Source: Bacteroidaceae bacterium (GTDB lineage Bacteria; Bacteroidota; Bacteroidia; Bacteroidales; Bacteroidaceae). From it: a stretch of DNA of 56,634 nt. Every line of letters starts with the position of its first letter. Position 1 is the stretch's first letter. Of this stretch, positions 12,864-54,305 are shown piece after piece. Under the pieces are notes generated by a model that did not search any database, was not told the DNA's origin, and saw only the letters and a program-made list of their open reading frames with translations. The translations under genes were made by a program, and so were the position numbers. The stretch covers positions 1 through 56,634 of the forward strand of contig JAFRQD010000024.1 in the NCBI GenBank assembly GCA_017428785.1. The letters are read 5' to 3'.

Positions 12864-12950
12864 AAACGCCGCCTGCGGCGATGGCAATCCCCGCGTGCGG
12901 CGTTGGTCATCCCCGCGTGCGGCGTTGGCAATCCCCGCACGCGGCGTTTT
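12864..12950 (+). repeat. Four-core palindromic array A
   Basis: Four GC-rich cores of type CCGC(GT/AC)GCGG on a 22-bp period, bounded by AAACGCCG and CGGCGTTTT. Spacers read ATGGCAAT, TTGGTCAT and TTGGCAAT. An outer inverted repeat AGGCCCTTT / AAAGGCCCT (12854-12862 and 12962-12970) encloses it. It sits between convergent genes (VanX-like and EnvC-like), so it may also terminate both. Confidence 0.9.
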
Positions 12951-12968
12951 CAGACATCGCCAAAGGCC

Positions 12969-14288
12969 CTATTTTCCTATCCAAGCCTCGGGGTTGAGCT
13001 TGGCTGTTTCCTTGCGCAACTGGAAGTGGAGCGTGCAGTTGCCGCTGCCGTCGTCGGCCACCGTGCCGAGTATGTCCTTCGCCTTCACCTTCTGCCCCTT
13101 TTGGACGATTGTGCTGGAGAGGTTGCAATAGACGGAGATGTAGCTGCCGTGGCGGACCAGGACGTTTCGGGTGCCGGCGAACTGGAAGACGCTGGTCACC
13201 ACTCCGTCGAAGATGGCACGGGCTCGGGCACCAGGTCGCCCGATGTAGTTCGTGCCCTTGTTGTCGAGCTGGACATTCTTCATGCCGGGCACATTATAGA
13301 TGCCGAACCGACTGCCCAGCATGTACTGCCCCGTGATGGGGACAGGCAGTCGCCCTTTGTTCTGCTCGAAGGTACCGTTGAGCTGGCGGTCCTCCGCCGT
13401 AAGCCAGGTGCCCGTCTTCTTGGGGGCAGAGGGCGTGGTCTGCTTCGGCGCTGACGGTGTGGACGTCTGCTTGCCCTTCTTCTCCGCCTCCTTCTTCTTG
13501 CGGGCAGCTTCCGCCTCAGCCTTCTTCCGAGCCTCTTCCTCCGCTTTCTTGCGGGCCTGCTCTATCTCGTAGGCTATGACCTGCTCTATCTTCTTGTCGA
13601 GCGCTGCCAACTGCTTCTGCTGCTCTGCCACCTTGCCCTGCAGTCCGCTCTCCTGTTTCTTCAGGCCTGCCACCTTCTTCCGCTCCTGAACTTGCTGGGC
13701 GTTAAGGTCTTTGCGCTGCAGCATCACCTCGTGCAGGACACCGTTCTTCTGGCTCTTGGCGGTAAGCAAGAGGTTCTGGGCATCGAGCAGCTCAGCCTGT
13801 TTCTGGAGAATCTGCTCGCCGAGGTTCTGCTGATAGGCCACATACTCTCGAGCATACCGAGCCCGTCTGTACATCTGGCTAAAGGTCTTGGCAGAAAGGA
13901 CGAACACGACGGGGTTGCGGTTCTCGCGCAAGGCTCTGGCATTGCGCACGGCGGCCTTGAGGCGCTGGCGGCGCATACGCACCTCGCTGTCGAGCTCCGT
14001 GATGTTCTTCTGCAGGCGCAGGATGTCGGACTCGAGGTCGTCGAGTTCCTGCTCGAGCTGGTGAATGCGGGAAAGGCGGTTGTTCATCTGCAGCCCGAGG
14101 AAGTCCACGTTCTGCTGTCCCGTCTTCACCTGTTTCCGGGTCTGGTCGAGCTGTGTCTTGGACTTCTGTAGCTCGGTCTTCAACTTCGACTGCTGCTGCT
14201 TCAAGTCCTTCACCCTCTTGCTGTTCTGCGCAGCAAGAGGAAGAGCCAGGATGAAAAGGAGGAAGAGAAATACGGACTGCTTCATCAT
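12969..14288 (-). CDS. EnvC-like murein hydrolase activator (M23/LytM domain, coiled coil, 439 aa)
   Basis: A signal peptide (MMKQSVFLFLLFILALPLAAQ) is followed by a long coiled coil (about residues 25-260, rich in K/E/Q heptads), a low-complexity Lys/Glu/Ala then Pro/Thr linker, and a C-terminal LytM-like domain from about 310. The domain keeps the fold motifs (SRFGIY, GTVADDGSGNCTLHFQLR), but the zinc site looks broken: the usual HxxxD is NVQLD, and the HxH is reduced to LHF. That points to an amidase activator rather than an active endopeptidase. Last gene of the dgt-dut-TPR-DUF4292 run, 12 bp after the DUF4292 stop. Confidence 0.88.
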   Translation of the reverse strand: MMKQSVFLFLLFILALPLAAQNSKRVKDLKQQQSKLKTELQKSKTQLDQTRKQVKTGQQNVDFLGLQMNNRLSRIHQLEQELDDLESDILRLQKNITELDSEVRMRRQRLKAAVRNARALRENRNPVVFVLSAKTFSQMYRRARYAREYVAYQQNLGEQILQKQAELLDAQNLLLTAKSQKNGVLHEVMLQRKDLNAQQVQERKKVAGLKKQESGLQGKVAEQQKQLAALDKKIEQVIAYEIEQARKKAEEEARKKAEAEAARKKKEAEKKGKQTSTPSAPKQTTPSAPKKTGTWLTAEDRQLNGTFEQNKGRLPVPITGQYMLGSRFGIYNVPGMKNVQLDNKGTNYIGRPGARARAIFDGVVTSVFQFAGTRNVLVRHGSYISVYCNLSSTIVQKGQKVKAKDILGTVADDGSGNCTLHFQLRKETAKLNPEAWIGK

Positions 14289-14300
14289 ATCGGCCGGAGC

Positions 14301-15011
14301 TTATAGAGACAAACTCATGATGCGTGAAATAAGTTCATCCACAGACACTTCTTTGTAACGCGACGAGACTTGCGTGCGCTTCTCCCATTCGGAATCGGTG
14401 GTGAGATTAGAGAGCGTGAGGTCGGCCTTTATGGTCTTCTTGCTCGTGGGAATCGTGATGGAATGCTTCGTGGGCAGGCTCTTGCCGCCGACGCTCACGA
14501 AGTCCTTGCGCACCCAGCCCGAATAGTTCGACGTCTGCTCGTCCCAGAAATAGGCTTGCAGGTAATAGAAATCGACATTGCCGTCCCTCAGGAACGACAC
14601 CTCATTGTAGGGCGACTTGACATACTGCTTACCCACCTTGTCGATGAGCATGAAGTAGTCGGGCGTCATCTCGATGCGCGCCACCTCGAGCACGCCGAAG
14701 GTGACGATGGAGAGCTGTATGACGTCGTTCCGCTTCATGCGCAGCGTGCCTCCGACCGACGCGTTGTTTCCTCCCGTGGAGAGGTCGAGACGAAGCCTCG
14801 CCGTGACGCACATCTCATCCTGGAGCTTGCTGTCCTTGGATTGTTTGCCATCGGTGGGGGCTGATGTGGTGGCAGTCGTCTGATCAGGGACTGTGTTGGA
14901 AGTGGAAACGGCATGTTTCTTGCTGGCGCATGCGGCAAGCAGGACGCAGAGCAATAACAGGACTCCCCTACTCCCTTTAGAGGGAGAAAGGAGGATTTTG
15001 GACTTGGACAT
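14301..15011 (-). CDS. DUF4292 lipoprotein (about 236 aa)
   Basis: The N-terminus carries a lipobox (LLLLCVLLAACASKK). The body contains the DUF4292 features (LRMKRNDVIQLSIVTFGVLEVARIEMTPDYFMLIDKVGKQYVKSPY). The family is LolA/LolB-like in shape, and a role in lipid or lipoprotein handling is only inferred. The start is placed at MSKSKILL (15011); MLKRS at 15026 is also possible. The signal-peptide segment LLSPSKGSRGV is encoded by a perfect CTCCCTTTAGAGGGAG palindrome (14971-14986), one of the in-frame palindromes. Lies between the TPR and EnvC-like genes. Confidence 0.82.
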   Translation of the reverse strand: MSKSKILLSPSKGSRGVLLLLCVLLAACASKKHAVSTSNTVPDQTTATTSAPTDGKQSKDSKLQDEMCVTARLRLDLSTGGNNASVGGTLRMKRNDVIQLSIVTFGVLEVARIEMTPDYFMLIDKVGKQYVKSPYNEVSFLRDGNVDFYYLQAYFWDEQTSNYSGWVRKDFVSVGGKSLPTKHSITIPTSKKTIKADLTLSNLTTDSEWEKRTQVSSRYKEVSVDELISRIMSLSL

Positions 15012-15075
15012 TGAACGTTTTAGCATTTTGGAACAATTCGTTAATTGTTGTCTGACTTGTTCCCTCTAAAGGGGG

Positions 15076-16797
15076 TTAAGGGGTCTTGATGTACTTCTTT
15101 CGTTTTATCTTCTTGCGGAGTTGCGGGGTGCAGGTGCCGTCGCCTTTCTGCCAGGCGAGCTTCCACAGGCGGAGCGCCGTTTCGGGTTCGCCGACATGGG
15201 CATAGATGTCGCCCGAGTGCTCGATGAGGTTTCCCATGAGCCGCTCGTCGGAAAGCAGTTCCTCGTCGGTCTTCTCGGGGTTCACCACCTTGTCCATATA
15301 GGTTCGTGCATGGGCGTAGTCGCCTTTCATGAAGAGGATCCAGGCATACGTGTCGAGGTAGGTGATGTTCTCCGGCTCCTGGCGTATGGTGCGATAGCTC
15401 ATCTCCTCGGCCTTGTCGAGCTGCTCGCCTTTGAGGCTCAGGTAGTAGGCATAGTTGTTGAGGCACATGATGTTGTCCTCCATATAGACCAGTGCCGAGT
15501 CGTAGGCCGCGAAGGCTTCCTGCTCCTTGTGTTGCTGATAGTAGATGTCGCCCAGCACGCCGAAGACGTTCGACACGAGGTGGGGGTGCATTTCGTCTGT
15601 GCGGACGCGCAGTCCCTGCTGGAGCACCTCCGCGGCATCCGTGAGCTTCTTCTGCTCGGCGAGAGCCATACCGAGGTAGTAGGCGTAGGCTATCTCCTCG
15701 GGATGGTAGTTGAGACCTCGTCGGCTGATGTCCTCCACGCCTTTCCCGTCGTTCTGCTCGGCATAGTACTGCAGGAGTTCGCGCAATGCCGTCTCGTTGC
15801 CCGGGTCCACCTCGAGCACCTGCCGCATCGTCTTCATGAGCTCCTCCTGGGGTTGCTTGCTATAGACTTGATAGGCGGCCTTCATGATGAGCACCTCGGC
15901 ATCCTGCTGGGGTCGTGCGAGGAGGGTGTCGAAGGCGGCCTCGAGGCGTGGGGCGTAGGTGGAGTCGCGTTGCACGTCGGCTATGTAGGACCTGAGCATC
16001 AGCACTCGCAGCTGTGCCGGCGACTCGGAATGGAAGAGGAGCGAGTCGCGCATCGTGTTGTAGAGAGCGTCCTGCCCGCTATCCTTGTAGTAGTCCATCA
16101 TGGCGAGCTGCAGGCTGGTGATGGTGGGCTCCTGCCGGCGCACTTCGTCGTAGATCTGGAGCGCCTTGACGGTGTCGCCCGCCTGCATGTAGAGGTTGCC
16201 GACCACGACGCGCAGGTTCATGTCGTGGGGTGCGTCGGCGCAGAGTGCCTCCAGCTGCACGAATGCCGAGTCGAGCTGCCCTTTCTCCTTGTAGAGCCTG
16301 AACTTCTCGACGCTCACCTGCGGACTGGGACCTTCGAGCAGCTCGATGCGGCTGAGGGCGCCGATGGCTTTGTCGGTGGCGCCCACCGTGCTGTAGAGCT
16401 GCACCAGCTGCAGGAGGATGTCGCTGCGGCGGGACTGGAGGGTTGTCATCTTCTCGAGGACAGGTATGGCAGCCTCTGCATCCCGTTTGTCGAGGTAGAG
16501 AGCGGCGAGCGTCTCGAGGTAATACGGATTGTTGGCGTCGTGCTCGCAAGCCCGCCTTATGTAGGCCGTGCCGAGGCTGTCGGAGTGCAGGTAGAGATGG
16601 AGCAGGCCGATATTATAGAGTGCCTCGGGCGCCTCGGGATTGATGTCGAGGCAATGGCGATAGAGGTCCATGGCGGACGAATAGTCTTCCTGCAGGCGGC
16701 ATTTCTCAGCCTCCAGGTAGAAGTAGTCGAAAGTGCTCTGAGCCCCGATTCCAAGGGCTCTGAGCGACAGGGCGAATATGATAAGAAATTTTCTCAA
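15076..16797 (-). CDS. Secreted tetratricopeptide-repeat protein (about 573 aa)
   Basis: A hydrophobic leader (RKFLIIFALSLRALGIGAQS) is followed by at least ten TPR-like units (for example EDYSSAMDLYRHCLDINPEAPEAL, NIGLLHLYLHSDSLGTAYIRRA, GKGVEDISRRGLNYHPEEIAYAYYLG). It is a periplasmic or outer-membrane scaffold; partner unknown. The only in-frame ATG (16833) lies inside repeat array B, so I prefer the TTG at 16797. The last residues before the stop come from a CCCTCTAAAGGGGG palindrome. It follows dut with array B in between and precedes DUF4292, an order I recall as conserved in Bacteroidales. Confidence 0.8.
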   Translation of the reverse strand: MRKFLIIFALSLRALGIGAQSTFDYFYLEAEKCRLQEDYSSAMDLYRHCLDINPEAPEALYNIGLLHLYLHSDSLGTAYIRRACEHDANNPYYLETLAALYLDKRDAEAAIPVLEKMTTLQSRRSDILLQLVQLYSTVGATDKAIGALSRIELLEGPSPQVSVEKFRLYKEKGQLDSAFVQLEALCADAPHDMNLRVVVGNLYMQAGDTVKALQIYDEVRRQEPTITSLQLAMMDYYKDSGQDALYNTMRDSLLFHSESPAQLRVLMLRSYIADVQRDSTYAPRLEAAFDTLLARPQQDAEVLIMKAAYQVYSKQPQEELMKTMRQVLEVDPGNETALRELLQYYAEQNDGKGVEDISRRGLNYHPEEIAYAYYLGMALAEQKKLTDAAEVLQQGLRVRTDEMHPHLVSNVFGVLGDIYYQQHKEQEAFAAYDSALVYMEDNIMCLNNYAYYLSLKGEQLDKAEEMSYRTIRQEPENITYLDTYAWILFMKGDYAHARTYMDKVVNPEKTDEELLSDERLMGNLIEHSGDIYAHVGEPETALRLWKLAWQKGDGTCTPQLRKKIKRKKYIKTP

Positions 16798-16812
16798 GGC
16801 GATGCTGAAAAT

Positions 16813-16895
16813 CCCCGCGTGCGGCGTTGGCAATCCCCGCGTGCGGCGTTGGTCATTTCCGCGTGCGGCGTTGGCAATCCCCGCACGCGGCGTTT
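16813..16895 (+). repeat. Four-core palindromic array B
   Basis: Four cores on a 22-bp period, ending CCCCGCACGCGGCGTTTA. Its left boundary lacks the AACGCC half of the outer repeat. The dut stop codon lies exactly at its right edge, and the TPR gene starts just left of it. Confidence 0.85.
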
Positions 16896-17328
16896 ATTTT
16901 GTCCCGCTGTGGCCAAATCCGCCAGCCCCGCGTTCGGTTTCTGACAGCACCTCCACGGGTTCCCATTCCGCCTGTTCGTGACGGGCGATGACCATCTGTG
17001 CGATGCGCTCTCCGTCGGCAATGAGGAAGGGTTCGTCCGAGAGGTTGACAAGGATGACGCACACCTCGCCGCGATAGTCGGCATCGATGGTGCCGGGCGT
17101 GTTGAGCACTGTGATGCCATGCTTGATGGCCAGTCCGCTACGGGGCCTGACCTGCGCCTCGTAGCCCGGGGGCAGAGCCATAAACAGCCCTGTAGGCACA
17201 AGGCGGCGCTCCATCGGCCTCAGCTCGATGGGCGACTCGATATTTGCACGGAGGTCAACGCCGGCGGACAACGGCGTTGCGTACTTGGGCAGCTCATGAT
17301 GGCTGCGATTGATAATCTGGACTTTCAT
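16894..17328 (-). CDS. dut: dUTP diphosphatase (144 aa)
   Basis: Cleaves dUTP to dUMP and pyrophosphate, keeping uracil out of DNA and supplying dTMP synthesis. The conserved trimeric dUTPase motifs are all visible: [11 protein letters not shown] (motif 2), [14 protein letters not shown] (motif 3), [11 protein letters not shown] (motif 4) and the C-terminal [11 protein letters not shown] (motif 5, closes over the active site). Usual length. Lies 53 bp downstream of dgt, giving a nucleotide-pool pair. The stop codon abuts array B. Confidence 0.97.
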
Positions 17329-17381
17329 TGCAACTATTAAATAAGACTCTAAACTCTAAACTCTGAACTCTCAACTCCAAA

Positions 17382-18740
17382 CTACACATCCGGCAGGCTC
17401 ATGCCGTTTATCTTGCGATAGAGGTCGAGGGCAAAGACATCGGTCATGCCCGATATGTAGTCGAGCACAGCCATGATGCGCCCGTAGAGCGTGGGGGCGA
17501 GGATGTCGTACTGCGTGCTGACGCGGTTGATGAGCAATTGCGAGAAGGCACGCTCGGGATGCGTTGCCGCGTGCACCATCAGGTCGGTCAGCGTCATGAT
17601 GACTTTGTAGCCGGCAATCTCTATATCCACCACGTCCTTGCAATGATATATCTTCTTGAAGGCGACGCTTTCGCACTGCCTATACGCCTGTCGCGGCAGC
17701 TCGTCGATATGCTTGATGAGCGAGCCCTCGAAAGTGCCGCTCAGGATGCTCTGCTCGTTCTCTGTGAAGACACGCACACACTGCTGCTCCAGGCAGTTGA
17801 TGACGCAGGAGCGGAGATAGACTATCTGCTCGTTGATGTCGTCCAGGAGCTGCTCCATGCGCTCCTCGATGTGCCGCTGCTGCTCCTCGCTGAAATAGGC
17901 GAGGAAGAGTTGCTTTGTCTCCTCTGTCGTCAGAAGCTTGAGCTTGTGGGCGTCCTCGATGTCCATAATCTGATAGCAGATGTCGTCGGCAGCCTCCACC
18001 AGATAGACGAGCGGATGGCGGGCATAGCGGACAGAGCCGTCGGGGGCAGGGAGCTTCAGGATGCCGAGCTCCTGGGCGATGCGCTCATAGTCGTCCACCT
18101 CGCTCCGGAAGAAGCCGAACTTGCGCTTGTTGCCTGCGAGGTCGGAAGTGAAGGGGTACTTGACGATGCTTGCCAGCGTGCTGTATGTCATGACGAAGCC
18201 GCCCTTGCGACGCCCCTTGAAGTGGTGCGTGAGGAGGCGGAAGGCGTTGGCATTGCCCTCGAAGTGCGTGATGTCCTCCCACTCCTGGGGCGAGAGGCCG
18301 TCGCCCGTCTCGGGACAGATGTAGTCCTTCAGGAAGAGTCCGTCGCCCTCGCTGAAGTAAGTGCCGATAGCCTTCTCGCCGCTATGGCCGAAGGGCGGGT
18401 TGCCGAGGTCGTGGGCAAGGCAGGCAGCGCTGACGATGTTGCCCAGCTCGGTGAAGTGCGTGCTGTAGAGCTCGGGATGCTGCTTCAGGATGAGGCGGCT
18501 GATGTCGTTGCCGAGACTGCGCCCCACACTGCTCACCTCCAGACTGTGCGTGAGGCGGTTGTGCACGAAGATGCTGCCGGGCAGAGGAAAGACCTGCGTC
18601 TTGTTCTGCAGGCGGCGGAAGGGAGCCGAGAATATCAGGCGGTCATAGTCGCGCTGGAACTCAGTGCGGTCATCGTCCCGCCGCTGCATCTCCTCCTGCC
18701 CAAGGCGCTTCGTGGAGAGCAGCTGCTCCCATTTCATCAT
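17382..18740 (-). CDS. dgt: Deoxyguanosinetriphosphate triphosphohydrolase-like protein (HD domain, about 452 aa)
   Basis: Hydrolyses dGTP (or other dNTPs) to the deoxynucleoside and triphosphate. The HD-domain motifs NRLTHSLEVSSVGRS and ACLAHDLGNPPFGHSGEKAI supply the metal ligands, and the N-terminal FSAPFRRLQNKTQVFP is typical of the family. The start is taken at MMKWEQLL (18740); nine further residues upstream are encoded by a low-complexity TTTACCAT repeat and are probably not translated. First gene of the run continuing into dut. Confidence 0.93.
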   Translation of the reverse strand: MMKWEQLLSTKRLGQEEMQRRDDDRTEFQRDYDRLIFSAPFRRLQNKTQVFPLPGSIFVHNRLTHSLEVSSVGRSLGNDISRLILKQHPELYSTHFTELGNIVSAACLAHDLGNPPFGHSGEKAIGTYFSEGDGLFLKDYICPETGDGLSPQEWEDITHFEGNANAFRLLTHHFKGRRKGGFVMTYSTLASIVKYPFTSDLAGNKRKFGFFRSEVDDYERIAQELGILKLPAPDGSVRYARHPLVYLVEAADDICYQIMDIEDAHKLKLLTTEETKQLFLAYFSEEQQRHIEERMEQLLDDINEQIVYLRSCVINCLEQQCVRVFTENEQSILSGTFEGSLIKHIDELPRQAYRQCESVAFKKIYHCKDVVDIEIAGYKVIMTLTDLMVHAATHPERAFSQLLINRVSTQYDILAPTLYGRIMAVLDYISGMTDVFALDLYRKINGMSLPDV

Positions 18741-18767
18741 ATCATTTACCATTATATCATTTACCAT

Positions 18768-18819
18768 TTACCATTTTCCCCCTCCCCCTTGTGGGGGAGG
18801 TCGGGAGGGGGCTGGGGAG
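18768..18819. repeat. C/G-rich palindrome cluster between dgt and the GNAT gene
   Basis: CTCCCCCTTGTGGGGGAG followed by GGGAGGGGGCTGGGGAG, preceded by TTTACCATTTACCATTTTCC low-complexity sequence. The same family continues into the end of the upstream gene at 18849-18865. Confidence 0.85.
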
Positions 18820-19878: not shown

Positions 19879-19896
19879 AATTCTCTTTACTCTCAA

Positions 19897-20700: not shown

Positions 20701-20727
20701 TTACCATTTAATCATTTACCATTTACC

Positions 20728-20866
20728 ATTTTTTTCCTCCCCCTTGAGGGGGCCTGAGGGGGCCTTCTCATCTTTTTTCCTCCCCCTAGAGGGGGAGTCA
20801 GAGGGGGTCTGCCAGGGGGAGTCTGAGGGGGTCTGCTCAGGGGGAGTCTGAGGGGGTCTGCCTTCT
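20728..20866. repeat. C/G-rich palindrome cluster with a 26-bp tandem
   Basis: CTCCCCCTTGAGGGGG and CTCCCCCTAGAGGGGGAG palindromes are followed by units of the type AGGGGGAGTCTGAGGGGGTC repeated at least twice in tandem, just 3' of the small secreted-protein gene. Same family as the palindromes found in frame in several genes here. Confidence 0.9.
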
Positions 20867-21235
20867 TCAGTTTATCGTTATGGGACGGTTATTGATGAAG
20901 TATTGCCCTCGTGGCAGGCCGCCCAGCCAGTTCTTCCCTTTGTTGAGGCGGGCGGTCATGTAGAGCACGCCGCCGGCGTTGTAGATGGGCAGGAGCTGGT
21001 TGTGGTCGCTCTGTATCTGTACGACGCGCCCCGTGACGCTTATCTGCACGGGATAGGTCGATGTGTTCATCTTCCTTGAGACAGGCATTTCGGGCGGTAC
21101 GAAGGGTACGACCAGCGTGTCCGGAGCACGACGAGTACGCACCTTCCGTTTGCGGATGGCGCCCTCGGCCGGCCAGCACATTGCGGCTGCCAGCAGCAAA
21201 AGAGCTGTTCGCTGTATCGTTGTCCTTACTCGCAT
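20867..21235 (-). CDS. Small secreted protein, unknown (122 aa)
   Basis: Starts MRVRTTIQRTALLLLAAAMCWPAEGA, a signal peptide. The mature part is basic at first (RKRKVRTRRAP), then a short beta domain (YPVQISVTGRVVQIQSDHNQLLPIYNAGGVLYMT) ending GLPRGQYFINNRPITIN. The ending resembles the last strands of T9SS-type or DUF3244-like tails. An upstream extension (to 21316) would run through the promoter and is rejected. No function can be assigned. It has its own promoter at 21286. Confidence 0.6.
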   Translation of the reverse strand: MRVRTTIQRTALLLLAAAMCWPAEGAIRKRKVRTRRAPDTLVVPFVPPEMPVSRKMNTSTYPVQISVTGRVVQIQSDHNQLLPIYNAGGVLYMTARLNKGKNWLGGLPRGQYFINNRPITIN

Positions 21236-21285
21236 ATCACTGTCGCAAGCGGAAAGTAATGAAAGCCTTCTCCCCTTACAAGCCA

Positions 21286-21293
21286 CAAAATTA
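21286..21293 (-). promoter_or_regulatory. -7 element of the small secreted-protein gene
   Basis: Minus-strand TAATTTTG, about 50 bp upstream of the chosen start at 21235. Matches TAnnTTTG; the -33 region is AT-rich and not clear. Confidence 0.5.
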
Positions 21294-21393
21294 CACATTT
21301 CCGAGCAAAAAGCCAAATATTCAGTTGAGTTTTTCTTTCAACTATAGTAACTATAGAAACGATAGGTACTATAAACCCCCTTTCGGGGGCATA

Positions 21394-21483
21394 AAAAACG
21401 CCGCGTGCGGGGATTGCCAACGCCGCACGCGGAAATGGTCATCGCCGCACGCGGGGATTGCAATCGCCGCACGCGGCGTTTTT
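21394..21483 (-). repeat. Four-core palindromic array C
   Basis: Same element as array A in reverse orientation, with four cores and both outer halves (AAAACGCCGCGTGCGG and CCGCACGCGGCGTTTT) present. An extra GGGGGC / GCCCCC outer stem lies at 21385-21390 and 21486-21491. It lies at the 3' end of thiL. Confidence 0.9.
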
Positions 21484-26535: not shown

Positions 26536-26623
26536 AAAACGCCGCCTGCGGCGATGCCAATCCCCGCGTGCGGCGTTGACCATTTCCGCGTGCGGCGTTG
26601 CCCATCCCCGCACGCGGCGTTTT
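26536..26623 (+). repeat. Four-core palindromic array D
   Basis: Four 22-bp-phased cores, starting AAAACGCCGCCTGCGG and ending CCGCACGCGGCGTTTT. Spacers ATGCCAAT, TTGACCAT and TTGCCCAT differ from those in array A. Lies between the sppA promoter and the 3' end of the LPG-synthase-type gene. Confidence 0.9.
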
Positions 26624-30609: not shown

Positions 30610-30637
30610 GCCTTTCCAACCCCCTCTGGAGGGCATG

Positions 30638-30729
30638 AAAAACGCCGCGTGCGGCGATTGCAATCCCCGCGTGCGGCGTTGGTCATTTCCGCGTGCGGCG
30701 TTGGCAATCCCCGCACGCGGCGTTTTTTT
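30638..30729 (+). repeat. Four-core palindromic array E
   Basis: Four 22-bp-phased cores with complete outer halves AAAACGCCGCGTGCGG and CCGCACGCGGCG followed by TTTTTTT. Lies between the convergent genes fbp and pssA, where it looks like a bidirectional terminator. Confidence 0.9.
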
Positions 30730-39338: not shown

Positions 39339-39426
39339 AAAAACGCCGCACGCGGCGATGCCCAACGCCGCACGCGGGGATTGCCATCGCCGCACGCGGA
39401 ATTTGCCATCGCCGCACGCGGCGTTT
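39339..39426 (-). repeat. Four-core palindromic array F
   Basis: Four 22-bp-phased cores, reverse orientation relative to A. The order of CCCC- and TTCC-preceded cores is permuted compared with the others. Lies at the 3' end of the DUF4294 gene. Confidence 0.9.
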
Positions 39427-39446
39427 CCGATGCCCTCACAAGGGGG

Positions 39447-40079
39447 TTAAATCTGCCCCGTTTCTACCTGACGCACAACGCGTTCGATGAGTTTGTCCTC
39501 CTCCTCCGGATGGTACTCCTTCTTCAGGCTGGCTCGGAATGTCCAGGCAAAGACCTGATAGAATGCGGCTCGAGCCGGACCGAGGAAGGCCTGCACGATT
39601 TCATAGGAAGACTGGTTGCATTCCCTGTCCACCAACTTGATGAGCAGCTTGCCCTGCGAGTAGGTGAGCTTCTTCATCTGAGGCGTGTACTGCGCCTTGA
39701 TGTCCCTTTCCACCGCGCTGATGTGGGCCTGTTTCTCCTTCTTGGTAGGCAGCATCTCGAGCGTCTCGTAGGTCTCGGCAATCAGGCCGTTCACCTCCTG
39801 TGCGATGGGCAGCACTTTCTTCACATTATAAACGAGGCGATTGTAGGCACGGCGCTGCTTCTCGCTCTTGAACTTGAGCGGCGGATAGACCCACAGCTCG
39901 GGCAAGAGGTAGCACCACATTGTGTCGCCATCCTCTATCAGAGGCTTCACATAGCGGAACCGCTGCAGCTTGAGCTTGTAGTTGACCGGCTCCTGCGGCA
40001 ACAGCTCGTCCTCCTCCTGAGCGTACACAAAGGGGCTCAGAAGCATCAACAAGCTCAATATAATCGCCTTACGTGCCAT
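39447..40079 (-). CDS. DUF4294 exported protein (210 aa)
   Basis: A signal peptide (MARKAIILSLLMLLSPFVYAQ) is followed by the DUF4294 core: DGDTMWCYLLPELWVYPPLKFKSEKQRRAYNRLVYNVKKVLPIAQEV and LLIKLVDRECNQSSYEIVQAFLGPARAAFYQVFAWTF. Bacteroidetes-specific periplasmic family of unknown function. The start at 40079 lies 8 bp after a -7 element, which rules out the longer upstream start. Confidence 0.88.
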   Translation of the reverse strand: MARKAIILSLLMLLSPFVYAQEEDELLPQEPVNYKLKLQRFRYVKPLIEDGDTMWCYLLPELWVYPPLKFKSEKQRRAYNRLVYNVKKVLPIAQEVNGLIAETYETLEMLPTKKEKQAHISAVERDIKAQYTPQMKKLTYSQGKLLIKLVDRECNQSSYEIVQAFLGPARAAFYQVFAWTFRASLKKEYHPEEEDKLIERVVRQVETGQI

Positions 40080-40087
40080 TTCTGCTG

Positions 40088-40095
40088 CAAAAGTA
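40088..40095 (-). promoter_or_regulatory. -7 element of the DUF4294 gene
   Basis: Minus-strand TACTTTTG ending 8 bp before the ATG at 40079, predicting a leaderless or nearly leaderless transcript. Confidence 0.6.
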
Positions 40096-40139
40096 CGACT
40101 TTTTAGTTCATACTCCATAGTTCATCGTTCATAATTATG

Positions 40140-40290
40140 TTTTTTTAATTCTTTGCCCGTAGCCACGATTTTTATTTTCCAACCCTCCATTTTCTATTTT
40201 TTATCTTTCAATTTTCAATTATTATCTTTCGTTTTTCAATTTTCTATTTTCAATTTTCAATTTTTTTTCTTTCAATTTTCAATTATATTG
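40140..40290. repeat. TTTTCAATTTTC low-complexity spacer
   Basis: About 150 bp of repeated TTTTCAATTTTCAATT and TATTTT words upstream of the radical SAM gene. No gene. Confidence 0.8.
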
Positions 40291-40292
40291 CC

Positions 40293-40300
40293 TACCTTTG
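40293..40300 (+). promoter_or_regulatory. -7 element of the radical SAM gene
   Basis: TACCTTTG ending 8 bp before the ATG at 40309; predicts an almost leaderless mRNA. Confidence 0.6.
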
Positions 40301-40308
40301 CACAAGTT

Positions 40309-44282: not shown

Positions 44283-44314
44283 CTTATTAGGATATTTTAT
44301 GCTTGTTTGCGCTG

Positions 44315-44322
44315 CAAATTTA
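44315..44322 (-). promoter_or_regulatory. -7 element of nadB
   Basis: Minus-strand TAAATTTG about 32 bp upstream of the nadB ATG. Confidence 0.5.
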
Positions 44323-44432
44323 CGAATTACACAGCGAACCGCAAAAGAAAAAGCATTTTTTCTTTTTTATTGTTGCATGCTTGATTTCTATACAGTTACT
44401 CTGGTTCCTACAGGTACCCCACAGAGGGGTTG

Positions 44433-44520
44433 AAAACGCCGCCTGCGGAATTGCCCATCGCCGCACGCGGGGATGGCCATCGCCGCACGCGGAATTTGCC
44501 ATCGCCGCACGCGGCGTTTT
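44433..44520 (-). repeat. Four-core palindromic array G, between divergent genes
   Basis: Four 22-bp-phased cores with a perfect additional outer inverted repeat CCCCACAGAG (44417-44426) / CTCTGTGGGG (44526-44535). It is the only copy not at a gene 3' end: it lies between the divergent promoters of nadB and metH. Confidence 0.9.
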
Positions 44521-44584
44521 CAACACTCTGTGGGGCTTCTGAATTTTTCTTCTTTCATAACTCCGAATTCTTAATTTTTCTTCG

Positions 44585-44592
44585 TACCTTTG
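44585..44592 (+). promoter_or_regulatory. -7 element of metH
   Basis: TACCTTTG, 10 bp before the ATG at 44603. No SAM, cobalamin or other riboswitch is visible in the 320-bp gap, which is largely array G. Confidence 0.6.
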
Positions 44593-44602
44593 TCCCCCGA
44601 AA

Positions 44603-48292: not shown

Positions 48293-48340
48293 CCCCGTTA
48301 TGACGAAATAACGCAATCACGACATCACGACATCAGCAAC

Positions 48341-49297
48341 ATGAAAGTCATCGACATCCTCCGCAGCAGCAAGCGCCCCTTCGCCAGCTTCGAGCTCGTT
48401 CCTCCCCTGAAGGGCAGCGACGCGAGCCGCCTCTACCAGAGCCTCGACCCCTTGATGGAGTTCCAGCCTCCCTTTATCAACATCACTTGCCACCGCGACG
48501 AGATAGAATATGTGCCGGACGGCGACGGCACCTTCCGGCGCATGACGCTGGCCAAACGCCCCGGCACGGTGGCCATCGTGGCAGCCATCATGCGCCGCTA
48601 CCCCGAGCTGGAGATCGTGCCGCACGTCATCTGCGGCGGCTCCTCGTCGAGCCATGTAGAGAGCGAGCTGCTGGACCTCCACTTCCTGGGCATCAAGAAC
48701 ATCATGGCCCTTCGCGGCGACGCCCTGCCCGGCCAAAAGGTCTTCATCCCCGAGCCCGACGGATTCTCGCACAGCTCGGAACTGGTGGGCATGATAAGCA
48801 ACCTGAATCGAGGCCAATACCTCGACCCGACGGTGAAGCAGGGCCTCAGCACCGACTTCTGCATCGGCGTGGCGGCCTATCCCGAGAAGCATTTCGAGGC
48901 AGCCAACCTGGAGAGCGACATACAGCACCTCAAACAGAAGGTGGAGGCAGGCGCCGACTACATCGTCACCCAGATGTTCTTCGACAACGAGCGTTTCTTC
49001 CGCTTTGCCGAACTATGCAGGAAGGCCGGCATCAGCGTTCCCATCATCCCTGGCCTCAAGCCCATCTCGTCGAAGAAGCAGATCGAGATGCTTCCGCGAG
49101 CCTTCCACATCGACATCCCGCAGCCGCTCGTCAGCCTGATGAAGAAGACGAAGACCGCCGAAGAGGCCTACCAGGCCGGCATCGACTGGGCAGTCCGGCA
49201 GAGCCGCGAGCTCCTCGAACACGGCGTCCCGGCCATACATTATTATACTATGGCCAAGCCCGACAACGTCTGCGAGATAGTCCGCGCCGTGTTCTGA
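48341..49297 (+). CDS. metF: Methylenetetrahydrofolate reductase (318 aa)
   Basis: FAD enzyme making the methyl donor for MetH. FASFELVPPLKG at the N-terminus, NITCHRDEIEY, IKNIMALRGDALPGQ, and AGADYIVTQMFFDNERFF with IPGLKPISSKKQ match the family. Length is normal. It lies 48 bp after metH, so both steps of the methyl cycle are in one unit; array H follows. Confidence 0.96.
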   Translation: MKVIDILRSSKRPFASFELVPPLKGSDASRLYQSLDPLMEFQPPFINITCHRDEIEYVPDGDGTFRRMTLAKRPGTVAIVAAIMRRYPELEIVPHVICGGSSSSHVESELLDLHFLGIKNIMALRGDALPGQKVFIPEPDGFSHSSELVGMISNLNRGQYLDPTVKQGLSTDFCIGVAAYPEKHFEAANLESDIQHLKQKVEAGADYIVTQMFFDNERFFRFAELCRKAGISVPIIPGLKPISSKKQIEMLPRAFHIDIPQPLVSLMKKTKTAEEAYQAGIDWAVRQSRELLEHGVPAIHYYTMAKPDNVCEIVRAVF

Positions 49298-49353
49298 GCA
49301 GCATAAATCTGAGCAAAAAACAGCAGACGAAACAACCCCCTTGAAGGGGCTTG

Positions 49354-49440
49354 AAAACGCCGCCTGCGGAATTGGCAAACGCCGCACGCGGAAATGGCAA
49401 TCGCCGCACGCGGAATTTGGCATCGCCGCACGCGGCGTTT
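49354..49440 (-). repeat. Four-core palindromic array H
   Basis: Four 22-bp-phased cores; its right edge provides the first base of the gluQ stop codon. Lies between the convergent genes metF and gluQ. Confidence 0.9.
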
Positions 49441-50351
49441 CAGAGGCTGGCTGTGATGTCTGTTTTCGGCACTTTTTGCCAGTCGAAAAGAGGCAGCAAA
49501 TCTTTGGGATTTATGGGAGTGGAAGCAGGCAGTATTCCTGCCAAAAAAGCTAAAAAACCCACGATTTCATCGGGATTTTTGTGTTTCTCACGAAGATAGG
49601 AAAGGTCGAGGGACTTGTCGCGCTTGCAGAGGCGCTGGCCGTTTTCGTTCACCAGAAGCGGATGATGGATGTAGTGCGGTTCTGGAAAGCCCAGCGTGCG
49701 ATAGAGGTGCAACTGTTGTGGAGTGCTCAACAAGAGGTCGCGGCCTCGCACCACCTCCGTGATGCCCATCAAAGCGTCGTCAACCACGACAGCCAACTGA
49801 TAAGCCCAGGCTCCGTCGCGCCGCCTGAGGATGTAGTCGCCGCAATGCTTCGCCAGGTTCACCTGCTGCGGGCCATAATGTCCGTCTTGGAATGCGATGA
49901 CCTCGTCCGGCACCATGAATCTTGTGGCATAAGGCGTGTTTTGCGCCATTTCATCGAGCTTTTTGCCCCTGCATGTGCCAGCATAGACGATGCGACCGTC
50001 CGTCTCGTGAGGCGCCTGAGTGGCCATGATGTCGGCACGCGTACAGAAGCAAGGATAGGTGAGTCCCATGTCCTGTAACTGCTTGAGGTAGTGCTCGTAG
50101 ATGTCCCCGCGCTGGCTCTGCCACACGACCTCCCCGTCCCATGGGAGTCCGAGCCACTGAAGGTCGTCCATCAGCTGCAAGGCAAAGTCGCGACGCGAGC
50201 GGTCGGGGTCGAGGTCTTCGATGCGCAGACGCCACGCTCCCCCCCTGCTCTTCGCCGAAAGCCACGAGAGGAGGGCGCAGAAGACGTTGCCCAGGTGCAT
50301 CCGTCCGGTAGGGGAAGGGGCAAAACGGGAAATGGGAGGAAGGGAAGTCAC
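49440..50351 (-). CDS. gluQ: Glutamyl-Q tRNA(Asp) synthetase (303 aa)
   Basis: A GluRS paralogue lacking the anticodon-binding half, which glutamylates the queuosine of tRNA-Asp. FAPSPTGRMHLGNVFCALLSWL carries the HIGH-like motif, LRIEDLDPDRS follows, and the KMSKS-like site is KRDKSLDLSYLR. The zinc ligands lie in YPCFCTRADI and YAGTCRG. The short length and zinc pattern separate it from true GltX. Confidence 0.93.
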   Translation of the reverse strand: MTSLPPISRFAPSPTGRMHLGNVFCALLSWLSAKSRGGAWRLRIEDLDPDRSRRDFALQLMDDLQWLGLPWDGEVVWQSQRGDIYEHYLKQLQDMGLTYPCFCTRADIMATQAPHETDGRIVYAGTCRGKKLDEMAQNTPYATRFMVPDEVIAFQDGHYGPQQVNLAKHCGDYILRRRDGAWAYQLAVVVDDALMGITEVVRGRDLLLSTPQQLHLYRTLGFPEPHYIHHPLLVNENGQRLCKRDKSLDLSYLREKHKNPDEIVGFLAFLAGILPASTPINPKDLLPLFDWQKVPKTDITASL

Positions 50352-50369
50352 AAGGAGATAGTTTATTAT

Positions 50370-50450
50370 AGAAGGGTTTGGGAGTGCCTAGGAAAACCTA
50401 GGAGTGCCAAGGAAAACCTAGGAGAGCCTAGGAAAACCTAGGAGTGCCTA
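50370..50450. repeat. CCTAGGAAAACCTAGGAGTGCC repeat run
   Basis: Four to five imperfect units of about 20 bp containing CCTAGG palindromes (GGAAAACCTAGGAGTGCC), between gluQ and the polyprenyl synthetase gene. Same family as the short run at 36461. Confidence 0.85.
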
Positions 50451-51419
50451 AAAGACTCTTTCCGCGACGAAAGAGGCAAGCTGGTGCAGCGCTTCGGTGA
50501 TAGCAGGGTCGCGTGTGTCGTCGATTAGGCCGTCGGCCATGCCTTGCATGTCTTTCATACGCCATTGCGCATACTCCAATCCGCCCTCTTTCTCTGCAAA
50601 CTGGATGAGGTCCTGTATCTCTTTGGCAGTCGCCTCACGCCGCCGCACCTTCAAAGCCAGCTCGCGCATGTCCTCGTTGTCACTGTAGTTGACGACATAA
50701 ATGGCTGGCAATGTGAGCTTTCCCTCCCTCATGTCGTTGCCTACGGGCTTGCCCACCTCTGCCGTTCCATAATCGAATACGTCGTCGCGAATCTGGAAGC
50801 AGATGCCGATGAGCTTGCCGAACTGTGCCAGTCGCTCCGCTTCGGCCTCGCTGCCGCCTGCTGCCAAGGCACCCAAGCGTGCACAGACCGAGAACAGGCT
50901 CGCCGTTTTGCGAGAGATGACATCGAAGTAGGCGGCCTCCGAAAGCACGTCGGAATCCTTGCTGTCGAGCTGCAGCAGTTCGCCGTCGGCAAGTGTCTGA
51001 CCGAGCTGTGCAATGTGGCGAACCACCCGTACATCCTCTGTCAGAGCGGCACATTCCAAAGCCTTGCTTAGTATGAAATCCCCACTAAGAACGGCAACTT
51101 GACTGGAGAGAAAGGCATTGAGGGAAGGCAATCCGCGCCGTCGGTCGCTTTCGTCCACCACATCGTCGTGCACCAAAGTGGCCGTGTGAAGCATCTCCAA
51201 AGCCAGAGCCACCTGTATGACCTTGTCGTTGACCTCGGCCACCATTCGTGCCGAAAGCAGCACGAGGAGCGGACGAAGCTGCTTGCCGGGGGCTTTGAGC
51301 AAGTGTTCCACAGCCTGTTCGAGCAGTGGATTGTCGGAATATAGCGTTTTGCGGAAAGCATCGTTGAATTGCTCCAATTCTGCCGCAACAGGGGCCTTTA
51401 TCTTATCAAGTACGTCCAT
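50448..51419 (-). CDS. ispB: Polyprenyl (octaprenyl-type) diphosphate synthase (323 aa)
   Basis: Trans-prenyltransferase for the quinone side chain. The first aspartate-rich motif is D85-D-V-V-D89 (TLVHDDVVDESDRRRGLPSLN), the second DDVFDYGT (about 215); HLLKAPGKQLRPLLVLLSA and LSGDFILSKALE are typical. Chain length cannot be read from the sequence. The 3' end faces gluQ across a CCTAGG repeat; the promoter is at 51439. Confidence 0.9.
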   Translation of the reverse strand: MDVLDKIKAPVAAELEQFNDAFRKTLYSDNPLLEQAVEHLLKAPGKQLRPLLVLLSARMVAEVNDKVIQVALALEMLHTATLVHDDVVDESDRRRGLPSLNAFLSSQVAVLSGDFILSKALECAALTEDVRVVRHIAQLGQTLADGELLQLDSKDSDVLSEAAYFDVISRKTASLFSVCARLGALAAGGSEAEAERLAQFGKLIGICFQIRDDVFDYGTAEVGKPVGNDMREGKLTLPAIYVVNYSDNEDMRELALKVRRREATAKEIQDLIQFAEKEGGLEYAQWRMKDMQGMADGLIDDTRDPAITEALHQLASFVAERVF

Positions 51420-51438
51420 TTATCGCATCTTTAGAGTG

Positions 51439-51446
51439 CAAAGGTA
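51439..51446 (-). promoter_or_regulatory. -7 element of the polyprenyl synthetase gene
   Basis: Minus-strand TACCTTTG 20 bp upstream of the ATG at 51419. Confidence 0.55.
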
Positions 51447-51512
51447 CAAAGAAAAGTTGAAAAGTTGAAAAGTTAAAGGGTTAAAATGAAAGAAGAATTG
51501 AGAAATATTTCG

Positions 51513-51520
51513 TAACTTTG
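51513..51520 (+). promoter_or_regulatory. -7 element of polA
   Basis: TAACTTTG about 55 bp upstream of the polA ATG. The leader contains four TTTCAACC-type repeats. The -33 region is not clear. Confidence 0.55.
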
Positions 51521-51574
51521 CACTGACAACCCTTTAATTTTTCAACCTTTCAACCTTTCAACTTTTATCGATAG

Positions 51575-54094
51575 ATGCAGAAACTCTATTTACTGGATGC
51601 CTACGCACTGATTTATCGTGCTTATTACGCCTTCATAAAGAACCCGCGAATCAACTCGAAGGGCGAAAACACATCTGCCATTCTCGGTTTTGTGAATACG
51701 CTGGAAGAGGTCATCAGCAAGGAGCAGCCCACACACATCGGCGTTGCCTTCGACCCGCACGGCGGCACGTTCCGCCACGAAGCCTTCCCCGAATACAAAG
51801 CCCAACGCGAGGAGACGCCCGAAGCCATCAGGTTTGCCGTGCCCATCATCAAGGAGGTGCTGGCCGCCTACGGCATCCCCGTGCTCGAAGTTCCCGGGTT
51901 CGAGGCGGACGACGTCATCGGCACGTTGGCTCATCAGGCTGACCTGAAGGGCATAGACACCTTTATGATGACGCCCGACAAGGACTTCGGACAGCTCGTG
52001 ACGGAACGCGTCAAGATGTATCGCCCTGCGGTGGGAAGGAACAGCGAGGCAGAGATCCTGGGCATCGAGGAAGTGAAGAAGAAGTGGGGACTCGAGTCGC
52101 CTTTGCAAGTCATCGACATGCTGGGACTGATGGGCGACAGCGTCGACAACATCCCTGGCTGCCCGGGTGTGGGAGAGAAGACGGCGCAGAAGCTCATCGA
52201 GGAGTTCGGAAGCATCGAAAACCTGCTGGCATCGACCGACAAGCTGAAAGGTGCGCTGAAGGACAAGATTGAGAATAATGTGGAACAAATCAAGCAGAGC
52301 AAGTGGCTGGCGACTATCAACCAGGAGGTTCCCATCAGCCTCGACATGAAGCTTCTCGAGCTGAAAGAGCCCGACAGGAACAAGCTGCAGGAGCTCTTCC
52401 GCAGGCTCGAGTTCCGGCAGCTGCTGAACAAAAGAAGCCCCCTCCCAGCCTCCCCAAAGGAGGAGGAGAGCCAACCCGCCAAGAACAACGACGGTTCCAC
52501 GCAGCTCGACCTCTTCGCAGCAGCTCCCGAAACCAAGAAAAAAAAGGAGCAGCCTCAGCAGCTCGACCTCTTCAGCATGGCCAGCCAAACTAGTCAAACT
52601 AGTCTGACTAGTGAAACTAGTAAAACCAGTCAGCCAGAGCCGTTCGTTGTGAAGGATGGCGTCGTCATCGGGCACAACCTCAAAGCGCATTGGAAAGAGC
52701 TCAAGGCGCAAGGGCTGACGGACCTCCCCATGTTCGACACCGAGATTGCCCACTACCTGCTGCACCCCGAGATGCGGCACTACATCGACTACCTCCTGTC
52801 CGTCTATGGCTGCAACGACCTGCTGCAACTGCAGGCAAGCCTCGAGGCAGAGCTCAGGAAGGAAGGCCTCTGGAGCCTTTTCACAGAGATAGAGATGCCG
52901 CTCATGCCGGTGCTGGCAGAGATGGAGGAGGCGGGCGTAATGATTGACACTGAGGGACTTAAAGAGACCAGCCGCCTCTTCACGGAGCAGATGCTGGCTC
53001 TGGAACAAGAGATACACAGCCTGGCCGGCCTGAACTTCAATATAAGCAGTCCGAAGCAGGTGGGCGAGGTGCTTTTCGACACACTCAAGCTCGACTCGAA
53101 AGCCAAGAAGACCAAGACGGGGCAGTACGTCACGAGCGAAGAGGTGCTTGAGGGGCTGAGGCGGAAGCACCCGATAGTCGGCAAGATTCTGGAGTACAGG
53201 GGACTGAAGAAGCTGCTGGGCACCTACATCGACGCCCTGCCGCAACTCATCAATCCTAAGACGGGACACATCCACACCTCTTTCAATCAGACAGTTACAG
53301 CCACAGGGCGACTCTCCTCGTCGAACCCCAACCTGCAGAACATCCCCGTTCGCGACGCCCAGGGTAAAGAGGTGCGCAAGGCCTTCATACCCTATCCGGG
53401 ACAGCTCTTCTTCAGCGCCGACTACAGCCAGATCGAGCTGCGCATCATGGCGCATCTCAGCAAGGACGAGAACCTCATTGAGGCCTTCCTGCATGGCAAC
53501 GACATCCATCAGGCGACGGCGGCAAAGATATTCAAGAAGCCCCTTGAGGAGGTCACTTCGGACGAAAGGCGGAAGGCTAAGACGGCCAACTTCGGCATCA
53601 TCTACGGCATCAGCGCCTTCGGTCTCGCCGAAAGGATGGGCGTGTCGAGGACCGAGGCGAAACAGCTCATCGACGAGTATTTCCAGACCTATCCCGGCGT
53701 GAAGGCCTATATGGACAAAAGCATCGCAATGGCTCGCGAGAAGGGCTACACCGAGACCATCTTCAAGCGCCGGTGCCAGTTGCCGGACATCAACTCGAAC
53801 AACGCGGTGGTTCGCGGCTACGCAGAGCGCAATGCCATCAACGCGCCGATACAGGGCTCGGCAGCCGACATCATCAAGATAGCCATGATTCGCGTCTTCA
53901 GAAGAATGAAGGCGGAGCAGCTCAAGTCGAAGATGATCCTGCAGGTGCACGACGAACTTAACTTCTCGGTCCTGCCAGAAGAGAAGGAGAAGTTGCAAGC
54001 CTTAGTGATAGAAGAGATGCAAGGTGCCGCGCAGCTCAGCGTCCCCCTTATCGCCGACTGCGGCTGGGGCACCAACTGGCTCGAAGCACATTAA
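51575..54094 (+). CDS. polA: DNA polymerase I with degenerate proofreading domain (839 aa)
   Basis: Repair and Okazaki-fragment polymerase. The 5' nuclease domain is intact (residues 1-290: YLLDAYALIYRAYYAFI, FEADDVIGTLAHQA, MLGLMGDSVDNIPGCPGVGEKTA). The polymerase domain is complete: SADYSQIELRIMAHLS (about 612-627), RRKAKTANFGIIYGISAFG and ILQVHDELNFSV (Asp about 791). The 3'-5' exonuclease region (about 350-430) has lost ExoI, carries a GHNLKAHW where the ExoII Asp is expected, and lacks ExoIII. It is preceded by a repeat-derived linker (SPLPASPKEEES, then SQTSQTSLTSETSKTS from ACTAGT repeats). Shorter than I recall for Bacteroidales PolA, fitting a deletion. Confidence 0.95.
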   Translation: MQKLYLLDAYALIYRAYYAFIKNPRINSKGENTSAILGFVNTLEEVISKEQPTHIGVAFDPHGGTFRHEAFPEYKAQREETPEAIRFAVPIIKEVLAAYGIPVLEVPGFEADDVIGTLAHQADLKGIDTFMMTPDKDFGQLVTERVKMYRPAVGRNSEAEILGIEEVKKKWGLESPLQVIDMLGLMGDSVDNIPGCPGVGEKTAQKLIEEFGSIENLLASTDKLKGALKDKIENNVEQIKQSKWLATINQEVPISLDMKLLELKEPDRNKLQELFRRLEFRQLLNKRSPLPASPKEEESQPAKNNDGSTQLDLFAAAPETKKKKEQPQQLDLFSMASQTSQTSLTSETSKTSQPEPFVVKDGVVIGHNLKAHWKELKAQGLTDLPMFDTEIAHYLLHPEMRHYIDYLLSVYGCNDLLQLQASLEAELRKEGLWSLFTEIEMPLMPVLAEMEEAGVMIDTEGLKETSRLFTEQMLALEQEIHSLAGLNFNISSPKQVGEVLFDTLKLDSKAKKTKTGQYVTSEEVLEGLRRKHPIVGKILEYRGLKKLLGTYIDALPQLINPKTGHIHTSFNQTVTATGRLSSSNPNLQNIPVRDAQGKEVRKAFIPYPGQLFFSADYSQIELRIMAHLSKDENLIEAFLHGNDIHQATAAKIFKKPLEEVTSDERRKAKTANFGIIYGISAFGLAERMGVSRTEAKQLIDEYFQTYPGVKAYMDKSIAMAREKGYTETIFKRRCQLPDINSNNAVVRGYAERNAINAPIQGSAADIIKIAMIRVFRRMKAEQLKSKMILQVHDELNFSVLPEEKEKLQALVIEEMQGAAQLSVPLIADCGWGTNWLEAH

Positions 54095-54215
54095 AGGCCT
54101 CTTTTCCTACCCCACCCCTCGATGCGCTCTACCCCTCCCCTTCGGGGAATGGGAGGGGAGTTGGGAATCACAGGGCTAAGTTTTAGCGGAGATTTATTAC
54201 CAAAGAAGGGGGTTC

Positions 54216-54305
54216 AAAACGCCGGCTGCGGCGTTGCTAATCGCCGCGTGCGGCGTTGACCATTTCCGCGTGCGGCGTTGGCAATCCCCGCACGCGGCGT
54301 TTTTT
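54216..54305 (+). repeat. Four-core palindromic array I
   Basis: Four 22-bp-phased cores, the first altered to GCCGGCTGCGGC, ending GCACGCGGCGTTTTTT. Between the convergent genes polA and the antiporter gene. The rest of the 243-bp gap is C/G-rich palindrome sequence (about 54105-54165). Confidence 0.9.

Follow-up and report, generated by a model that had tools for sequence, protein, structure and literature searches.

What are the phased palindromic elements that recur between the genes of a Bacteroidaceae bacterium? The window analysed here, a stretch of 56,634 nucleotides from a draft genome, contains nine such arrays, each with four cores, and all nine were found where the original prediction had placed them (no strand is assigned to any). 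Array A (12863-12950) lies in a convergent gap, array B (16809-16896) directly 3' of a dUTPase gene, and array C (21395-21482), with its cores in the opposite orientation, 3' of an AIR-synthase-like gene. Array D (26536-26623) is followed by array E (30639-30726), in the convergent gap 3' of the FBPase gene, where several relatives have other cores in the orthologous gap, and by array F (39340-39427), which has four CCGCACGCGG cores and lies 3' of a DUF4294 gene. Array G (44433-44520) occupies a divergent gap with a promoter-like region on either side, and arrays H (49354-49441) and I (54216-54303) occupy the convergent gaps 3' of the MTHFR and DNA polymerase A genes, respectively. The neighbouring genes scanned in the window are mostly ordinary housekeeping genes. 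Two unstranded arrays of other spelling also lie in the window: a non-CCGC array of equal 22-bp period, with a core of AACGTGTT type (7406-7510), and a 22-bp array with CGACACGTCG-type cores (8422-8492), the same core being found in arrays of the relatives G005 and G034. Three loci of this genome (L095 7405, L099 9569 and L106 9675) share a 22-bp unit whose core is of CATCATGATG type and whose odd spacer holds CAGCAATTGAT. No Rfam family matches the window at the gathering score. The minus strand of the window contains, at 287-6328, an open frame of 2013 aa with short internal repeats.

The core-to-core distance within the nine arrays is 22 bp in all 27 cases, as had been predicted; the spacers, predicted to be 8 bp long, are 12 nt. 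The motif CCGCRYGCGG fits 31 of the 36 cores, and shuffling gives an expectation of 0.49 per window, which rules out a chance origin. The five deviating cores, four of CCGCCTGCGG and one of CCGGCTGCGG, are in each case the first core of the array, where occasional deviation had been anticipated. The cores had also been described as palindromic, which is true of the 4-bp arms but not of the GT/AC centre between them (or CT/AG). By core centre, the commonest orientation is T-T-T-A, found in 23 of 34 aligned four-core arrays of this genome. The proposed outer inverted repeat, AAAACG...CGTTTT, matches exactly at both ends of five window copies but not of the other four. Terminal inverted repeats are present in this genome, in that 68 of 100 array ends are exactly AAAACG/CGTTTT, 21 are AAACG and 11 are of another kind. 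A spacer T at position 4 and a spacer A at position 9 have frequencies of 0.90-0.99 in the four genomes measured, which have three core spellings among them.

Beyond the end cores, at a distance of one register (22 bp), a weaker palindrome is often found. The mean number of paired arm positions, out of four, is 1.80 at this register in the source genome vs 0.92 at neighbouring offsets, and the corresponding values are 1.52 vs 0.86 in RUG12391, 1.20 vs 0.92 in G008 and 1.42 vs 0.95 in G005. When the source genome and RUG12391 are pooled, the commonest outer cores are CCCTACAGGG (5) and CCCTGTAGGG (3), of about 197 ends, with most being unique; both resemble CCCTATAGGG, the spelling of G005. In G008, the inner half of the outer cores ACTGCAGTTA (14) and ACCCCAGTTA (8), of about 64 ends, is the G008 arm. 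The outer palindromes may be caps, or relics of an older spelling.

Is this architecture a property of the window or of the genome? The genome is a 2.98-Mb draft of 71 contigs that is 84% complete, and 677 kb of it was sampled with at most one arm mismatch allowed. Four cores are present in 45 of 50 sampled arrays (two cores in 2, three in 2 and five in 1), and the spacing is 22 bp in 144 of 145 cases and 21 bp in the other. The fixed four-core design that had been proposed holds for this genome but is looser in relatives: four cores are found in 46 of 64 arrays in RUG12391, 8 of 18 in G005 and 3 of 32 in G008, where 22 of the 32 arrays have three cores. In the four-genome comparison, the spacing is 22 bp in 102/103 cases in the source genome, 58/60 in G008, 53/54 in G005 and 149/182 in RUG12391, whose other 33 spacings are 21 bp. 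The 21-bp steps of RUG12391 (for example, L027 1069 and L041 2099) have an 11-nt A/T-rich spacer such as AAATTAAATCG, usually at the array end in the cases listed. Scaling the 309 adjacent perfect core pairs of the whole genome by the 22 pairs per nine arrays of the window gives, very roughly, 130 arrays.

The arrays of this genome represent one spelling of a class found across the genus, in which related genomes have intergenic 22-bp-phased palindrome arrays with other cores. Adjacent pairs of CCGC(RY)GCGG number 309 in the source genome, 357 in RUG12391, 76 in CAMVDV and 3 in CAMJJD, with 2 each in G035 and G012, 1 each in G005 and G013, and none in the other 56 of a 61-genome set. The counts for the next three spellings come from the genome set without RUG12391, CAMVDV and CAMJJD. 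Pairs of TAAC(RY)GTTA number 239 in G008, 15 in G005, 11 in G035, 3 each in G012, G024 and G034, and 1 in G020, with none in the remaining 54 genomes, the source genome among them. Pairs of CCCTATAGGG number 113 in G005 and 3 in G034, with none in the other 59 genomes, and TCAC(RY)GTGA pairs number 1-9 in 7 of the 61 genomes, including 4 in the source genome. Additional spellings are found in single or few arrays of G012, G034, G035, G013, G016 and G001. One spelling dominates in each of the four genomes counted for this, namely the source genome, RUG12391, G008 and G005. The dominant cores are confined to arrays in the three genomes sampled, since 107/108 lie inside arrays in the source genome, 74/76 in G008 and 64/65 in G005, and none were found as singles in coding sequence. 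Related species of Neisseriaceae reportedly spell one short genome-wide word, the DNA uptake sequence, in different dialects, and the species-specific spelling of the arrays' short word is similar. An uptake word of this kind, scattered through the genome and its coding sequence, is not supported for the arrays, given that just 1/108, 2/76 and 1/65 cores lie outside arrays in these three genomes, none of them coding.

Intergenic self-similarity was also scanned at every lag from 10 to 60. The main peak is at lag 22, with its double at 44, and includes 57 arrays in the source genome, 55 in eight close relatives and 11 in ten other genomes of the genus; these densities, like those of the gap-class counts below, are not unbiased because stretches were picked at known hits. 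Of the source-genome stretches, the first 16 were picked at known arrays; the next 20 (304 kb, 15 arrays) were picked without regard to CCGC arrays, although two of these sit at other known hits. Known hits also determined the choice of several stretches in G005, G008, G012, G013 and G035. Off-peak lags are small, with 8 arrays at lag 43 and 5 at lag 21 in the eight close relatives. In 20 genomes of other families (71 kb intergenic, with stretches that are short for some genomes, the minimum being 422 bases), one array is at lag 22 and two are at lag 23. The arrays have an even-centred dyad score of 0.595 vs 0.44 in phase-permuted arrays, and an odd-centred score of 0.44 vs 0.45. The pattern is as if spacing and symmetry mattered and the spelling were exchanged across the whole genome.

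Several observations came from the same searches. CAMVDV (L025 1226-1399 and 5891-6014) has an extra 22-bp array, with 7.9 copies of CACGTGTAGATTTCAAATTATC, and a CCGC-type array of 5.6 units. In G054, of another family, two intergenic 23-bp arrays (L200 8225 and 9625) have TCACAA...TTGTCAG units, at the period of the BrickBuilt element discussed below. A 63.8-kb IMG/VR contig has one array (L092 4865-4896) that by eye adjoins an apparent tRNA 3' end, and RUG12391 has a near-identical array at what is apparently the same site (L035 7625); the contig may include the host flank of a prophage. Among the matches listed from a scan of named genomes, those in Kordiimonas, Rhodobacteraceae, Paracoccus and Rhodospirillales lie inside coding sequence and by eye look like chance.

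Where do the arrays lie relative to genes? In ten genomes, with gaps of at least 90 bp counted, 44 of 75 convergent gaps contain an array, as do 80 of 308 tandem gaps and 22 of 105 divergent ones, and ten control lags combined give 13 gap hits. The arrays in tandem gaps are nearer the upstream stop in 74 of 80 cases, at a median of 52 bp vs 207.5 bp to the next start. Therefore, the arrays are extragenic and chiefly 3' of genes, and they are also found between divergent promoters. No strand preference relative to transcription was seen in tandem gaps, where numbers are small.

These positions bring in the reading that the arrays are bidirectional intrinsic terminators, such that an array transcribed from either side folds to GC-rich hairpins followed by a U-run; we judge it unlikely. 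The place of the arrays in convergent gaps and just past stops fits this reading in the source genome and in RUG12391, as do the folding and the T-runs. Compared with shuffled sequence, the median folding z is -5.1 in the source genome and -4.9 in RUG12391 (at most 24 arrays each, both strands), and T-runs of at least five T in 8 nt past the last core are found on 0.39 of strands vs 0.20 in controls and on 0.60 vs 0.26, respectively. However, G008 arrays fold weakly (z -1.75, median MFE -14) and have T-runs at 0.20 vs 0.30 in the control, and G005 arrays have stable stems (z -4.8) yet T-runs at 0.14 vs 0.39. Nor does folding explain the fixed 22-bp spacing, the single genome-wide spelling, or the arrays that sit between divergent promoters in a slot kept across species. 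Since stem and T-run go together only in the source genome and RUG12391, and not in G008 or G005, plain termination is unlikely as the shared function; the arrays may terminate transcription in some species. A long-hairpin RNA was also considered and rejected. Mutual information in 31 arrays of the source genome does not reveal clear compensation across the array axis, complementarity between the two flanks runs no longer than in shuffled sequence (longest runs of 5.44 vs 5.60 in the source genome and 5.33 vs 5.52 in RUG12391), and core orientation in RUG12391 is free of the constraint that a long hairpin requires. At one outer position pair, 30 bp beyond the end cores, the bases are complementary in 0.66 of the 32 elements of the source genome vs 0.28 expected, which is treated as chance given so many tests.

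Are the same gaps occupied in related species? Window gaps were compared with the orthologous gaps of eight relatives, which are 82-89% identical to the source genome over 15 concatenated proteins, by use of gene calls from a simple codon-usage caller. For window gaps with an array, the orthologous gap is also occupied in 20 of 31 comparisons, and for window gaps without one it is occupied in 0 of 47, although rows share species and hence are not independent; convergent and tandem gaps alone give 15/20 vs 0/33. Slots are conserved by this comparison, which the original prediction had proposed for orthologous gaps. The comparison took in seven of the nine array gaps plus the gap at 40047-40308, where the 'array' of the source genome is an AT-rich low-complexity repeat that is the source of 5 of the 11 misses and was kept in the count. 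Three more misses (G034 at 21071 and 44283, and G013 at 30610) are by eye two-unit or 21-bp arrays and were left as counted. Arrays F and H fell outside this comparison, since the genes flanking their gaps did not come out of the gene calls as adjacent orthologs.

The occupied slots are filled by differing sequences. A non-CCGC core is present in 16 of the 20 occupied orthologous gaps, and the other four are those of RUG12391 and CAMVDV. The gap 3' of FBPase has CCGC cores in the source genome, RUG12391 and CAMVDV, TAAC cores in G008, CACGTG-type cores in G035 and GGTTAACC cores in G012. In the divergent gap at 44283-44602, promoter-like flanks can be aligned in seven genomes, with unrelated cores between them. 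The slot of array H, 3' of MTHFR, has arrays in G034 and G012 and a short one in G035; RUG12391 is an exception to the slot rule, with no array in the stretch examined 3' of MTHFR. In this gene-flank comparison, minus-strand matches (such as those of G005 and G012 for FBPase) were left out, given that they show the wrong side of the gene. In an unrooted FastTree tree of the 15 concatenated proteins, with gaps, the source genome and G008 form a group and the genomes with the CCGC spelling are dispersed, which implies that the spelling has changed several times or been transferred laterally.

A change of spelling could also come about if the arrays were small mobile or selfish palindromic repeats, of a REP, REPIN or MITE-like kind, that copy themselves from locus to locus, each species being dominated by a different family. 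We consider this quite unlikely, although there is some evidence of copying in the source genome. The spacers of one array are linked (Mantel r of 0.42, 0.33 and 0.22, with 0, 2 and 39 of 1000 permutations as high; 34 arrays, 677 kb), and identical 36-nt spacer sets are found in four locus pairs (two groups, five loci), when 0.055 pairs are expected with a maximum of 1. The linkage extends to the 6 bp beside the outer cores on both sides (12 and 1/1000); beyond this it is absent on the left and weak to 30 bp on the right (14 and 22/1000). The flanks of near-identical arrays, with at most two differences, are unrelated (0.368 vs 0.355 for all pairs), and the number of CCGC pairs between close relatives ranges from 309 to 0-2. 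This suggests that arrays of this genome are copied into other slots as blocks of about 88 bp. A repeat analysis of 32 arrays from the first 373 kb gives a weaker signal, with 11 pairs of at most two differences (null mean 4.5, null maximum 11) and with one of three spacer pairs unlinked (151/1000). In addition, orientation errors can mimic linkage in the copying test, and its signal is weak in G008 and G005.

Other signs expected of a mobile element are lacking or inconsistent. No target duplication was found: in 31 aligned copies, the largest single-base excess has a z of 4.5 among about 12,500 offset tests, and the best-ranked offset pairs listed have direct matches of at least 4 bases in no more than three copies. 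The Y1 transposase family (PF01797) has one IS200-like match in the source genome and matches in 6 of 16 relatives, including one or two each in the array-bearing G013, G034 and CAMVDV, but none in the array-bearing G005, G008, G035, G012, G016 and RUG12391, an absence that is not absolute because the genomes are drafts. Mobilisation by a RAYT is not supported, given the six array-bearing relatives that are missing matches. The only match found in the source genome (L022 1402-1857, minus strand) is 151 aa long and IS200-like by eye. Moreover, the same slots are filled across species by differing spellings and other gaps stay empty, which speaks against a mobile repeat.

The arrays might instead be a mutational by-product, in which tandem duplication and template switching at quasi-palindromes yield functionless 22-bp minisatellites; this we consider very improbable. 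Tandem palindromes are expected hot spots of slippage and template switching, and the array of 5.6 units in CAMVDV is in keeping with such an origin. However, the likeness of spacers within vs between arrays, out of 12 positions, is 8.50 vs 8.61 in the source genome, 8.44 vs 8.84 in RUG12391 and 7.30 vs 8.24 in G008. With spacers no more alike within arrays in these three genomes, the arrays are unlike recent local duplications; G005 spacers are slightly more alike within than between arrays (9.07 vs 8.67). The conserved slots also speak against a mutational by-product.

No prior description of 22-bp phased palindrome arrays was found in the open-licence literature, and the known repeats nearest to them are compared here from partial texts of the sources. 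REP, BIME and REPIN elements are GTAG- and CGTC-tagged short extragenic palindromes in many copies, mostly 3' of genes; some REP families are species-specific, and the CGTC-tagged kind is reported in Bacteroidetes without a dedicated transposase (PMC3733652). As far as that text describes them, the arrays are similar in being extragenic, palindromic, multi-copy and chiefly 3' of genes, but differ in their head-to-tail order at a 22-bp phase, their 10-bp cores and the keeping of slots despite sequence change. By eye, neither tag is present in the aligned consensus of the source genome, AAAACG-core-CG(T/A)T. Therefore, the arrays are REP/BIME-like by location and palindromes, as these are described there, but lack the tags and add strict helical phasing and conserved slots. 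The nearest Bacteroidales repeat found, judging from the portion of the report used, is the BrickBuilt MITE of Porphyromonas gingivalis, with a 23-nt tandem unit, a leader and tail, and 19 copies in ATCC 33277 (PMC4596501). BrickBuilt is likewise intergenic and in tandem at about two helical turns, with small inverted-repeat ends, whereas the arrays have a 22-bp unit, a palindromic core and a per-species spelling, the latter two features not being noted for BrickBuilt in that portion. PINSR of Prevotella intermedia, a 188-bp intergenic repeat with 177-184 copies, lineage-restricted and without terminal inverted repeats (PMC4755523), resembles the arrays in being intergenic, in many copies and restricted to a lineage. 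Unlike PINSR, which the available text does not describe as tandem, the arrays are tandem and have terminal inverted repeats.

The reading that we prefer, and put somewhat short of an even chance, is that the arrays are phased binding arrays for a putative dimeric protein, that they bound transcription units and that they evolve in concert. A multi-site array for a dimer had been suggested originally beside a bidirectional terminator and a small mobile repeat, and it is the best fit to the 22-bp phasing and to the dyad symmetry kept across cores, although the protein itself is inferred. Phase, symmetry and place are common to all four genomes compared, which fits a protein that would lie on one face of the helix at the boundaries of transcription units. 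An array would then comprise mostly three to five dyad-like sites in a row, spaced at two helical turns, and would occupy a conserved slot between units. The putative dimeric DNA-binding protein would fill these sites on one helix face, probably cooperatively, and the bound array could act as a two-sided boundary that stops or insulates transcription, with an intrinsic terminator added in some species. The cores would be held alike within a genome by selection to match the protein, and probably also by copying between loci, and the shared spelling would change between species. Plasmid iterons, such as the 22-bp iterons of R6K, are direct repeats at two helical turns that are cooperatively bound by an initiator. 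The arrays also repeat at two helical turns, but are many chromosomal arrays between genes, and the DNA polymerase A gene beside array I is the sole replication gene noted next to the window arrays.

Several results count against a dimeric protein. By a strict test, a 10-bp dyad core is clear in no more than 72 of 124 arrays. The dominant core of the source genome has a non-palindromic GT/AC centre, with the CG tending to one side, so the site is not a pure dyad. Exact phasing is also open to objection, in that two turns at 10.5 bp come to slightly less than 22 bp and that RUG12391 takes some 21-bp steps. Finally, the linkage of spacers and the sharing of whole spacer sets by unrelated loci point to copying, by which cores could become uniform even if no protein reads them.

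What the comparison offers is a case in which position, phase and symmetry are often kept and the sequence is wholly different between species with proteins 82-89% identical to the source genome's, over the 15 proteins used. With geometry and place kept and sequence differing, what is constrained (geometry and place) can be separated from what is unconstrained (spelling). The arrays are therefore a natural experiment for tracing the putative reader, by asking what varies in step with spelling. Extragenic palindromic repeats are usually explained as terminators or as products of transposases. A bolder reading, possible but rather unlikely, is that the arrays are chromosomal boundary landmarks read by a dimeric protein of fast-changing specificity, with species rewriting the sites genome-wide as places and helical phase are kept. 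If true, this would be a bacterial counterpart to recombination hot spots or centromere repeats, which co-evolve rapidly with the proteins that bind them.
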